Shown here one piece after another: positions 3,883 to 53,336 of a stretch of 64,000 bases of DNA. The DNA is from Bolinopsis microptera (taxonomy: Eukaryota; Ctenophora; Tentaculata; Lobata; Bolinopsidae). Under the pieces are notes generated by a model. It was not told where the DNA came from, did no database searches, and saw only the letters and a program-made list of their open reading frames with translations. The translations under genes and the position numbers were made by a program. How positions within the stretch are numbered: position 1 is the stretch's first letter; each line of letters opens with the position of its first letter. The DNA lies in the NCBI RefSeq assembly GCF_026151205.1, contig NC_087083.1, positions 10,475,460 through 10,539,459 of the forward strand, in the 5' to 3' direction.

Positions 3883-6800
3883 ATGATCAAACCAAAGAAG
3901 TACGACTGGAAGGACAGCAACCTCGCTCTTTTTGGAAGTGATGTGGAGAAAGGTGTTAAAAAGGACTCAGCTAACGCAGAGCCTGCTTGGCATGGATCAG
4001 GTACGTCTCATGCGTGCTAGATCACGCGGTACAGATGATCACGCGGTACGGATCACGCGTTACATATCACACTGTTCAGTTTCAGTCTACTCGACTCAAA
4101 TATTCATATGTTATTCAGGACAAGAAGTGGGTCTTGAGATCTGGAGGGTTGTAAAGTTCAAGATAGAGAAGTGGGCCAAGGAAGATTACGGCAAGTTCTT
4201 CAGCGGCGATTCCTACATCGTTCTCAACACATACAAGTACGGTGTAGTTATTTATCACTATAAATAGCATAGACTGTTTAAGTTTGGACTAATTGCTATT
4301 TCTTGTTATTAGATTTTGGAAGTTGGTACTACTAATTGTTTAACTTCAAACAAGCATTTAGGGTATTGTTATTAATAAATCATAAACCTGACCGAATACT
4401 TTTACCAAGTATAAAGCTTACAGTTACACACTACAATCCAACCCGTCATCTTAATTTCATAGTTTCCTGATTATGTGAACTTCGTTTAGTTATCTGTATT
4501 GACTATTGACCTGGCCTCTGTACGTCCAATGCGTGACTGTTGACGCGTGACATTGTACAAATCACACGGTATAGAACACGTGACATTGTACAAATCACGC
4601 GGTATAGAACACGTGACATTCTACAACATACAAATCACGCGGTATAGAACACGTGACATTCTACAAATCACGCGGTATAGAACACGTAATACAGATCACC
4701 GGATCACGTGATATCTATTAAAGTATTAACTAGGCCTCGGTCACAGGAACCCTGATGAGGAAGATCTGGAGTACGACCTCCATTTCTGGATTGGAAAGTA
4801 TTCCACTCAAGATGAGTACGGTACTGTGGCGTACAAGACTGTTGAACTGGATACCTTCCACAATGACAAACCTGTTCAGCATCGCGAGGTTTGTATGTTT
4901 GTCTGTTTGTCTGTTTGTCTGTTTGTATGTTTGTCTGTTTGTATGTTTGACTGTTTGTATGTTTGACTGTTTGACTGTTTGTATTTTTGTCTGTTTGACT
5001 GTTTGACTGTTTGTATGTTTGTCTGTTTGTCTGTTTGTCTATTTGTCTGTTTGTCTGTTTGTCTGTTTGACTGTTTGTCTGTTTGACTGTTTGTCTGTTT
5101 GACTGTTTGTCTGTTTGACTGTTTGTCTGTTTGACTGTTTGTCTGTTTGACTGTTTGTCTGTTTGACTGTTTGTCTGTTTGTCTATTTGTATGTTTGTCT
5201 GTTTGTCTGTTTGTCTGTTTGTCTGTTTGACTGTTTGTCTGTTTGTCTGTTTGTATGTTTGACTGTTTGTCTGTTTGTATGTTTGTCTGTTTGTCTATTT
5301 GTCTGTTTGTCTGTTTGTCTATTTGTCTGTTTGTATGTTTGTCTGTTTGTCTGTTTGTCTGTTTGACTGTTTGTCTGTTTGCCTGTCTAACCGCAGTAAC
5401 TTGTTCTGTTTGCACAGCTTCAAAAAATTGTTCTTACACCAATCCAGTCCAGAATCTTAATCAAATTCGTTCTACCGTTCATCTAATAACCAACCTTTCC
5501 TTTAGATCCAAAGCAACGAGTCGACCATGTTTTCCTCTTACTTCCCTAACGGAATCAGTCTGATGAAAGGAGGAGCTGACAGTGGTTTCAAACACGTCAA
5601 ACCGACCGAATACAAACCAAGACTCTTCCAGTTTGTTGGTTAGTTTCATTTGTGTTGGATTAATTTTCATATCGACATTAGTAATTCCGCAATAATTTAG
5701 GGTGAATATTTTGTATTGGATGGATGTCCTATATAGAGCATTGGTAGTTGAGAAAAATGAAAGCCTGTGGTCCGTGTAAAAAAATGTAATCTCTACAACT
5801 TACCAGGTACCACTTACGCTAACACTGTAATCAAGGAGGTTGGCCTCTACAAGCAATCACTCAACAAGGAAGATGTCTTTGTTCTTGACAACGGTCTCCA
5901 GATCTACCAGATCAATACTCCCAACTGTGACAAAGACGAAAAGGTAATATTGGATCTGAAATAGAAGGTAATATTGGATTTGAAATAGATGGTATTGGAT
6001 CTGAAATAGAAAGTAATATTGGATCTGAAATAGGAGGTAATATTGGATCTGAAATAGAAATCTGGCTGAATTTTTGCTTTCGTCTGAAATTCAGCAACGG
6101 GAGTTTAAGGTTTAACTTTTAATGTAAGTAGTTGGTGGGGATAAGACAGTAACAAAAGGAAGATTTCTAGTATTAACTTTCAACTTAGGAGCGTTGAAAG
6201 GATCAAAACATTTCATTTTGAAAATATTAAACAGTCACATTCCATTCCAGGTAAAAGCAATGCACCACTGTCTGAAGATAAAGAGTGAGAGATGTGGACG
6301 ACCCAAGGTCGAAACTATTGACGATGACCCTCTTAAACACGATGTGGTATGATTATTAACTTCTAATTAACTAATTAATTAACTTCAACTAATTAATTAG
6401 CTTCTAACAAATTAGTAGTAAATTTGATATAGTGATTGGTGTAATAAGAATAGAAAACTAAAAACTTTTACTGACTTTAACCAGTAAATTTAATAAAAAC
6501 GGAAGATTTATTCATAACTGATCAATCGATCCCTCGTTATTTTGGCGCCCTTTTTGAACTAACCATCTGCCATAATAACCGTTAAAAACCGTTTAAATTG
6601 GATAATCTTGGTAGCCTCTAATTGCGAGAAACATGTGAGGATTCTAATTTGTCATCTAGTCAGAAAAATATCCTCATCGTAATTGCTCTCACAGCACATC
6701 ACTTATGTGTAATAGGTATCGTCATAATGACACTAATCCTAGCCATGATATTATTATTTACTAACTTTAACATGTAATAACCTAACTTATACTAACTAGG

Positions 6801-7665
6801 AGACTAACCTAACATGTAACTTAACGTGTAAACTTCAGGTAGCGGGAGTACTAGGAGATAAGAACAAGAAGGAAAAGGCTCCAGCTCCAGGACCACACTC
6901 CAAGAAGCTTATCAGGGTGAGTTATCATATTTTCAATTGTTATCTCATTTTCTTATCTTCTTATCCACCAAGGTAATAGGTATCTATTATAGTGTGAACT
7001 ATCTATAACTCTATAAGTTGCAGCTGTCCTATGGGTAGTGAGTATGATTGACAAAGACAGCTTAGCACAACTGAAAAGTTCATCGATTGCAATACAACTA
7101 CAAGTCAAATGTGAAATTATTCGCAAATAATATGTAAATTACATATAATTTATCTGGAATAGTATGTAGATTACTTATAATTTGTATGTTAATTACATCT
7201 AAATTCATAATCATATTTCTAGGTAAGCGATGATTCAGGAACCCTAAAGATGGACACAGTTGCCGAAGGCTCATTTGAAGTTGACGACTTGGACCCTAAG
7301 GATGTGTTCATTGTTGATTTGGAAAAGTCAATCTACGTTTGGGTTGGAGAAGGTATGTATGACTGTAATGAGTTTTTATTTCTTTTAAAGCGTAAAGATA
7401 ACTATACTCTCAATTATAAAAGTAATAGGTACACCAAACATTTCATAACAAAGGTTTGAAAGCTTTTCAGTTTTAGAAACTAACAGTGCACTTTATCAAA
7501 CTAATTTATTATTTAACCAATTAATTAGGTGCCAGTGCGGAAGAAAAGAAGAACGGTATGTCTTATGCTCATACCTACGTATCCAAGACAGACAGGCCCC
7601 TCAGAAGTATTTCGGTCGTTAACCAACGTCGTGCTCACCACATGTACGCGGATATGAAGGCTTAA
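3883..7665 (+). CDS. Gelsolin/severin-like actin-binding protein, nine coding exons, 362 aa
   Basis: Coding exons: 3883-4000, 4119-4236, 4747-4888, 5506-5638, 5807-5943, 6251-6346, 6839-6916, 7223-7352, 7529-7665. They total 1089 bases with phase kept throughout. The product has three gelsolin repeats, the layout and length of severin/fragmin-type proteins, rather than the six of full gelsolin. Repeat 1 (about 40-165) has [25 protein letters not shown] and the [17 protein letters not shown] stretch that corresponds to the actin- and Ca-binding face. Repeat 2 is about 170-245 and repeat 3 about 268-362 ([18 protein letters not shown]). The family severs and caps actin filaments in a Ca-dependent way in the cytoplasm. 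There is no signal peptide, so this is a cytosolic form. In repeat 2, the position of the usual tryptophan-containing strand reads QIYQIN, which is divergent. Intron 3 is almost wholly an 8-bp microsatellite. I chose the start codon because it is the first ATG of the open exon and gives the usual short N-terminal tail. Confidence 0.93.
4545..4690. repeat. 33-bp minisatellite in gelsolin intron 2
   Basis: About four units of 33 bp contain CATTGTACAAATCACGCGG and GAACACGTGA. Each unit carries a CACGTGA core. The array lies within intron 2, about 55 bp before exon 3. A separate array at 49518-49682 has the same period and shares CATTGTA and CACGTGACA. Confidence 0.85.
4889..5388. repeat. 8-bp microsatellite (GTTTGTCT)n filling gelsolin intron 3
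   Basis: About 500 bp of an 8-base repeat with variants TTTGTCTG, TTTGACTG and TTTGTATG. It starts at the first base of intron 3, so the first repeat unit itself supplies the GTTTGT donor after codon GAG. The long open frames here on both strands (VCLFVCLS-like or KQTNRQTD-like) are products of the repeat period, not genes. Confidence 0.95.
5944..6060 (+). repeat. Tandem copies of the intron 5 donor region of the gelsolin gene
   Basis: About five copies of a 20-25 bp unit containing GGTAATATTGGATCTGAAAT start exactly at the exon 5 donor (AAG, then GTAATATT). Several copies repeat the AAGGTAATAT or AGGTAATAT donor-like sequence, so the intron opens with several candidate 5' splice sites. Only the first keeps the reading frame to exon 6 without adding a stop. 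Confidence 0.75.
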
Positions 7666-8452
7666 TTAATTAATTGATTAATTAACTCCCGAAAACAAGG
7701 AAATGTTTTTTTCTGGGCATACTGAGGAACAAAAGGGCATATTTTGAGCATTTTATCTGACATATTATTGTTTTCCTTTTATTCGTTTTGTTGAATCTTT
7801 TTGACCTTCCTTTTTAAACACTATTTTTTGGCTATATCGTGGCTCTTGTAGAAAAACCTAATTCTGATTGTGTAATTATATAATTAATGTGCTCGATAAT
7901 TTGTGGATGATTATAATTATGGTTATTTAATTTTGTAAAACCCGAAGAACGTACTGTTGATTATTTCTTGTTCTACTAAAGTCTACCGAGATGCATTCTA
8001 TTTCAGCATAATACGATATATTTTCAGCAACTTTTTTCAAACTCTTATTCACAATAGATCAACTAAATTTCCCAGCAAGATTTCCTTTTAATTTACTATT
8101 CACCAATTGAGTCTGAATTACGATCACAATGGGCCTGTAATCAAGTTGTATGCCTAACCTTGAAACAACAACAAAAACAAATAACTCTCAATGCAAATAT
8201 CGATCAGGTTACATAAAAACACTCGGTTTAATCAGAAGAAATCTCGAAAAGAAATTCTTAAAATAATAGCACAAAAAATCTTTAACAAGAAATGTTTTGC
8301 ACTGGTGTTCACTCCAATTTGATTTTATCGGGGAACCCCAAGTTTTCCCATCAGCTCCATTCGTAGAGTTGTCAGATCAACTACAACAATCACACGACTG
8401 TCACTTGACCACGTGACTCAACACGTGACCAAGCTGTTCCGGGTCATGTAAC
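7666..8452. other. Gap between the convergent gelsolin and peptide-precursor genes
   Basis: About 790 bp of AT-rich sequence that must hold the 3' untranslated regions of the two convergent genes. I found no clear AATAAA for gelsolin. A variant ATTAAA on the minus strand near 8091 could serve the peptide gene. No other gene is seen. Confidence 0.5.
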
Positions 8453-9028
8453 CTATCGTCCGAAGTAACCACCTTCTTCAGCATTGTGCTCTGAAACTAT
8501 GTCCGAGTCGAGAAGTTCGCCCTCAGACGCTGCTATACCGGCAGAGTTAACTTCGGACATCATCATCTCTCCTGAATCCTCTGCAAGATCGATTGATGCT
8601 GATATTCCTGTAGGGTTGATTGTTTGTCAGGCTAGGATAGTTAAATGAATGTTTTTCAATAGCATAAATAGGATTTCAGTAATAAAATAATCACTGTCAG
8701 AACATATGTAAACATAATGTAATTATGGAACGATTGTAATATTAATACTATATCATATATCAGATTTAATATCCGGATCACGCAATTCAAGGAGTCAATT
8801 TGTAATCCATTATCGCGTTCAAATTGAACTCCACATTTAGCTTTTAATTCGGAGATAAAACTTTGGATATCATCTATATATTTTATAATGAGAAAAAATA
8901 TTAAACTCAACAATGTGATTGAAAGTTTACTTAAAGTTAAACTAAGTTTAACTGCAGTTTGAGTTACCTTGCTCAAAGATGCAGACGGCCACCACTAAAA
9001 ACACTAATGCTCCGATAAATTTGGACAT
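8453..9028 (-). CDS. Putative secreted neuropeptide-like precursor, two exons, 71 aa
   Basis: Exon 1 is 9028-8968 (ATG to CAA G, donor GTAACT). Exon 2 is 8607-8453 (acceptor CCCTACAG, stop TAG). The joined frame is 216 bases. Residues 1-20 form a clear signal peptide (MSKFIGALVFLVVAVCIFEQ). The rest is strongly acidic, with no Lys or Arg until the last residue. The protein ends EEGGYFGR. A C-terminal Gly-Arg is the classic amidation signal: a carboxypeptidase removes Arg and peptidylglycine alpha-amidating enzyme uses Gly. Cnidarian precursors are known to be cut on the amino side after acidic residues, which would release GGYF-amide or a slightly longer form. A TATA box lies 87 bp upstream and supports a real promoter. 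Known: the processing logic. Inferred: that this is a signalling peptide. It could instead be an unrelated small secreted acidic protein. I do not recognise a named family. Confidence 0.72.
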
Positions 9029-9114
9029 TTCAACGATTGTAGAGATTTCAACTTTGGCTCTTCACAAGATTGGTGGATAAAAATATAACTGCCGTCGAAA
9101 GCTACCCCAACTCC

Positions 9115-9122
9115 TATTTATA
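9115..9122 (-). promoter_or_regulatory. TATA box of the peptide-precursor gene
   Basis: The minus strand reads GGTATAAATAGG around this position, a near-ideal TATA box. Initiation would be expected near 9085-9092, giving a leader of about 60 bases before the ATG at 9028. Confidence 0.75.
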
Positions 9123-9124
9123 CC

Positions 9125-11187: not shown

Positions 11188-53336
<42,149 letters not shown>

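Follow-up and report, generated by a model that had tools for sequence, protein, structure and literature searches.

The locus and its gene model

The window, by which we mean the whole 64,000-nucleotide stretch of Bolinopsis microptera DNA analysed here (C12:10475460-10539459), carries a small two-exon gene on its minus strand at 8453..9124, and the gene model gives a product of 71 aa, MSKFIGALVFLVVAVCIFEQGISASIDLAEDSGEMMMSEVNSAGIAASEGELLDSDIVSEHNAEEGGYFGR. Its features, in window positions, are the following.

9122-9115, minus strand: TATA box TATAAATA, within GGTATAAATA; the box starts 94 nt ahead of the ATG
8968..9028, minus strand: coding part of exon 1, comprising the signal peptide MSKFIGALVFLVVAVCIFEQ and the first base of G21; ATG at 9028, donor CAAG/GTAACT
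8608..8967, minus strand: intron of 360 nt, GTAACT...CCCTACAG, GT..AG, phase 1
8607-8453, minus strand: coding part of exon 2, comprising the end of the signal peptide (ISA), a K/R-free acidic region, SDIVSEHNAEEG, GYFGR and the stop
8471..8506, minus strand: codons for SDIVSEHNAEEG, the same residues in both paralogues on contig C5, with 8 silent base differences
8453..8470, minus strand: GYFGR and stop, the proposed amidation end, missing in both C5 paralogues
8227..8232, minus strand: ATTAAA, a possible polyadenylation signal by motif match only, 220 nt past the stop

The initial annotation had described here a TATA box, a short leader, a signal-peptide exon and a single in-phase intron, followed by an acidic propeptide with no basic residue except the terminal Arg and ending EEGGYFGR; its coordinates and junction proved right, the strand, which it had not named, is minus, and the composition of the gene model bears out its description of the propeptide. 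The leader between the TATA box and the ATG is indeed short, and the hydrophobic N-terminal stretch FIGALVFLVVAVCIF qualifies as a signal peptide on visual inspection and under a hydropathy threshold. With the signal-peptidase cut at ISA/S, which is our own assignment, the remaining chain of 47 aa contains 12 D/E, no Cys and a single K/R (1/47), the last Arg, and the precursor closes on Gly plus a basic residue (...GYFGR-stop). Candidate cleavage sites are EE before GGYF and LLD before SDIV, with no basic site, and an alternative in-frame acceptor lies at 8580, the use of which would remove nine codons from exon 2 and leave the C-terminus unchanged. Neither the window protein nor the C5 protein matched any Pfam family at E up to 10, and the two solved-structure matches, to titin (E 0.056) and geranyltranstransferase (E 0.2), were not significant.

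A Gly-Arg or Gly-Lys end is by itself weak evidence, because among the window's 654 stop-to-stop ORFs that reach 40 aa or more, 4 have a G[RK]+ end, three of them after an aromatic residue, the candidate counted. The full layout of TATA box, hydrophobic start, donor, acceptor, acidic exon and Gly-basic end occurs only at the candidate in the real window, where it is recovered via the 8580 acceptor only, and the scan for this two-exon layout, the criteria of which were picked after the gene had been seen, gave no match in 20 Markov-simulated windows. TATAAA stands exactly at -94 before 1 of the 2066 window ATGs, the candidate's own, and at -100..-80 before 18.

On the plus strand, a multi-exon gene with gelsolin repeats converges on the candidate from window ~4100-7665, its end near 7665 being placed by eye; PF00626 matches it at 7223-7459 (E 6.3e-06) and 4730-4966 (E 8.7e-05), and a repetitive stretch at ~4876-5433 lies within its span.

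Tandem paralogues on contig C5

Searching the genome (264,652,675 bases in 232 contigs) with the 71-aa window protein returned four matches, namely its own two exons and two places on C5 (E 0.19 and 0.20), and the search with the C5 protein returned three, both C5 places and the window; as the search scores best candidates only, the family counts at least three genes and further relatives are possible. A 21-aa query taken from the window protein matched the window only, and did not recover C5 from the genome. The two C5 paralogues are arranged in tandem 8.44 kb apart, at 17374865-17375002 and 17383307-17383444; their exon 1 codes MFALLLISTL, and their exon 2 finishes the signal peptide and continues with VPYNAAEMSEGGLESAAYNTEDLDVAESDIVSEHNAEEGQ and a stop.

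An ungapped alignment of 36 residues between the C5 and window proteins scores 76, a value reached in none of 5000 shuffles. Identity within it is complete over SDIVSEHNAEEG (12/12 residues) and poor outside that block, where 4 of the 24 residues agree. The SDIVSEHNAEEG codons of the window and C5 differ at eight bases with no replacement, including a TCA/AGC serine switch, and eight random changes simulated in these 12 codons were all silent in 0/300000 trials, a figure somewhat overstated because the C5 match was found by protein similarity. The resemblance extends to the promoter, as all three genes have in common the 10-nt GGTATAAATA with TATAAA at exactly -94 from the ATG. It extends also to the intron, which interrupts the same codon throughout, albeit in phase 1 in the window versus phase 2 on C5, and from the intron codon to the shared Glu-Met there are 12 codons in every copy; we prefer the window acceptor at 8607 over that at 8580 because it is the one that gives this 12-codon spacing, as in both paralogues. 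Between themselves, the tandem C5 copies show no difference over 174 coding bases versus 158/5791 over the whole duplication (chance of 0/174 about 0.008). The order of signal-peptide exon, acidic K/R-poor region and SDIVSEHNAEEG block is thus present in 3/3 genes found, the family being defined from these same three. Because the C5 paralogues exist, a chance origin of the window gene is very unlikely, and we regard the small gene described in the window as confirmed.

The similarity between window and C5 ends at GAAGAAGGT, after which the window reads GGT TAC TTC GGA CGA TAG (GYFGR-stop) versus CAG TAG (Q-stop) on C5. Both C5 paralogues consequently end EEGQ-stop, without GYFGR or an amidation signal, and among the relatives found, both of them paralogues in the animal's own genome, the amidated end is not conserved. 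The GGYF end, put forward as the mature peptide, is not the conserved part of the precursor, since both of these genes retain SDIVSEHNAEEG but close with Q directly after it; and the pattern that was to speak against an amidated peptide, loss of the GYFGR end with the rest kept, is seen at the C-terminal block, in paralogues and not in orthologues. Of the proposal of an amidated neuropeptide precursor, the secreted-peptide gene, the acidic K/R-free propeptide and the Gly-Arg end stand, and what has to be revised is the conserved part, which is SDIVSEHNAEEG and not the GGYF end.

Known precursors and the predicted product

Ctenophores hold a key place in the debate over a single origin of nervous systems, and their lineage has been proposed as sister to all other animals. 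Our literature search found no GYFamide neuropeptide, no GGYF-NH2/GYF-NH2 and no SEHNAEEG peptide; an orthologue may already have been predicted, for instance among the 30 Mnemiopsis precursors of a list cited in PMC9525235.

PMC9525235 reports 13 precursors of amidated peptides from B. mikado by mass spectrometry, with cleavage at both acidic and basic sites; it further reports PAM in ctenophores and, for the peptidergic clusters found in Nematostella and in Mnemiopsis, carboxypeptidases, PAM and neprilysin. Acidic cleavage had been argued for the window precursor from cnidarian precedent; the cleavage itself is documented in Bolinopsis mikado (PMC9525235), and the precedent needs correcting, the animal being a lobate ctenophore and not a cnidarian. 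Cnidarian amidated precursors nevertheless offer a likeness, as PMC9525235 reports both acidic cleavage and amidated peptides for Nematostella, with the difference that they belong to another phylum.

The NPWa peptide of B. mikado, given as IGSDIKLVPGAGGNPWa in PMC9525235, was used with an added GR as a query; residues 2-18 of its 18 matched contig C13 with 94 % identity (E 0.04). On the other strand, this NPWa locus (L011) comprises, with the exons joined by eye, a signal exon, then an acidic exon, and finally an exon for SDIKLAPGGGNPWGRK and the stop. With the exons so joined, the window gene resembles the NPWa precursor in its signal-peptide exon, its acidic K/R-free second exon and its Gly-basic end, as well as in having no Cys and a single mature peptide at the C-terminus. 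Unlike the window gene, NPWa keeps its mature peptide on an exon of its own and closes with GRK, and the 400 nt ahead of its ATG contain no TATA[AT]A. The C5 paralogues share with the window gene the signal and acidic exons, SDIVSEHNAEEG, the TATA box at -94 and the intron codon, and differ in their EEGQ-stop, the missing amidation signal and the intron phase (2 versus 1). Homology to NPWa by way of a common 'ELxxSDI' was considered and ruled out, as 2254/5000 shuffles score as high. A VWYa query, run as a second control, matched nothing in the genome; with 17 residues the search has little sensitivity, and the sequence may be different in this species, so that the result weighs neither for nor against.

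Precursors with Gly-Arg ends are typically secreted, lose the Arg to a carboxypeptidase and are amidated by PAM. We propose that the TATA-driven two-exon gene would give rise to a secreted precursor of 71 aa, that removal of the signal peptide would leave an acidic chain with no Cys and with K/R only at the last Arg, and that trimming of this Arg by a carboxypeptidase would expose a Gly for conversion to the amide by PAM, leaving the end ...EEGGYF-NH2. Any internal cuts would have to fall at acidic or other non-basic residues, comparable to the acidic cuts reported for precursors of B. mikado and Nematostella. Given that the constraint falls on SDIVSEHNAEEG, the active peptide would most likely include this block, for example as SDIVSEHNAEEGGYF-amide; we consider a longer ...SDIVSEHNAEEGGYF-amide more likely than GGYF-amide. 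A point against this is that conserved neuropeptide motifs are usually C-terminal, whereas here the conserved acidic block would be N-terminal to the amide. While the gene layout, the paralogues, the constraint and the paralogues' missing tail are observed, we infer that the window precursor is transcribed, spliced, secreted, cleaved at the sites above and amidated, that it has a signalling role, and that the gene is expressed in neurons.

Our best reading of the genomic sequence is that the three genes represent a new ctenophore family of secreted peptides defined by SDIVSEHNAEEG, in which the window copy may have gained, or alone kept, the GYF-Gly-Arg end; the family's products may be nerve signals, gland products or antimicrobials. 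We give about even weight to the proposal that the window gene is a member of such a family built on SDIVSEHNAEEG, and the copy with an amidation-type end; points against this reading are the EEGQ ends of both paralogues, a donor-like AAG/GTCAGT at the very end of the similarity on C5, which may lead there to a third exon, the C5 E-value, which stood at 0.19-0.20 until the other features came into view, and the differing intron phase. More tentatively, the acidic core SDIVSEHNAEEG could be the hormone in all copies, one of which carries an amidated GYF cap, amidation having been gained or lost within the family. If true, a family whose amidation signal differs between paralogues would make it possible to test directly by what route amidation comes and goes in peptide signals, and the window precursor supplies concrete masses to seek in the existing B. 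mikado peptidome.

Alternative readings and neighbouring frames

It is rather unlikely that the family makes a secreted acidic peptide or propeptide with no amidated signal, where SDIVSEHNAEEG would be functional in all three genes and GYFGR would be an incidental read-through extension. The intact frames of the tail-less paralogues, unchanged between the copies over their 174 coding bases, are in keeping with such a product, as is the recurrence of G[RK]+ ends in the window at 4/654; that background is, however, under 1 % for one given frame, and a Gly-Arg closing a K/R-free chain is exactly the requirement of an amidated precursor.

A neuropeptide precursor with a short GGYF-amide product, cut after Glu-Glu, is in our view unlikely. 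The arrangement EE/GGYF/GR would combine an acidic cut with an amidation signal as described for B. mikado in PMC9525235, and the end reads aromatic-Gly-Arg-stop, but both paralogues are without the GYF end even though the 12 residues before it are identical and constrained, and two mature peptides of B. mikado given in PMC9525235 have 15 and 16 residues. With GGYF-amide as the only product, nothing would account for the constraint on SDIVSEHNAEEG, and the paralogues would yield no product; since these end EEGQ with no amidation signal, GYF-amide is evidently not needed by the family.

Exon 2 could instead be spliced at GAAGAAG/GT into a third exon with the mature peptide, as in NPWa, so that GGYFGR would be intron, an arrangement that we consider improbable. 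Similarity to C5 does halt exactly at AAG/GT, where C5 has the good donor AAG/GTCAGT, silent changes are absent from the last four codons before the donor, and NPWa shows a signal/acidic/mature exon layout in the same phase (by eye). Against these points, the window AAG/GTGGTT is a weak donor by consensus, the room before the last exon of the plus-strand gelsolin-like gene, near 7665, is ~790 bp, an ATTAAA follows 53 nt past the C5 stop, and scans in which short exons are easily missed revealed no convincing in-phase amidation-type exon within ~5 kb downstream on C5 or in the window.

Scanning from in-phase AGs for a downstream exon with any of three Gly-basic patterns (~5.0 kb in the window, ~5.3 kb for the C5 copies) gave internal G-K/G-R matches and two exceptions; these, the window exons at 5575 (two residues, GK-stop) and, overlapping it, 5545 (LIPLGK-stop), fall within the gelsolin-like gene at a distance of ~2.9 kb downstream and are unconvincing. 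An any-frame scan for Gly-basic ends (~2.4 kb per C5 copy, ~1.3 kb in the window) yielded, besides the candidate, one Cys-Gly-Lys end per C5 copy, with no in-phase acceptor AG seen.

That the window locus is no gene at all, owing to accidental splice pairing or as a decayed copy, is hardly credible: its exons are short, but the core differs from that of the paralogues only silently, promoter spacing is equal across the genes, and the frames are intact in all three copies.

Further frames were noted at both loci. Adjoining each C5 paralogue on the minus strand is a frame whose leader looks secretory, MRFFCVLICLAVVSFG (L005 ~7100-7670) and MRFFCVLICLVVVSL (L006 ~5600-6150), and a very acidic frame, SDISDSDDIGSLEVRSDNEAESESESESE, lies beside the C5 paralogues at both L005 and L006. 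In the window, a plus-strand frame of 159 aa at 15274-15753 has a secretion-like leader and several Cys, with no Pfam match at E 0.01, and exon pieces at ~37500-39200 (plus strand) resemble, by eye, glutamine synthetase, the piece 37587-37910 having no Pfam match at E 1. A single frame of 339 aa at 45259-46278 (plus strand) looks by eye like a rhodopsin-type GPCR, with LNPCVYY near its end, and has no match among Pfam (E 0.01) and NCBIfam (E 1) models. The minus-strand open frame of 1125 aa at 28721-32098, with endonuclease/reverse transcriptase and RNase H domains (Pfam RVT_1, RNase_H, Exo_endo_phos_2), is a non-LTR retrotransposon.
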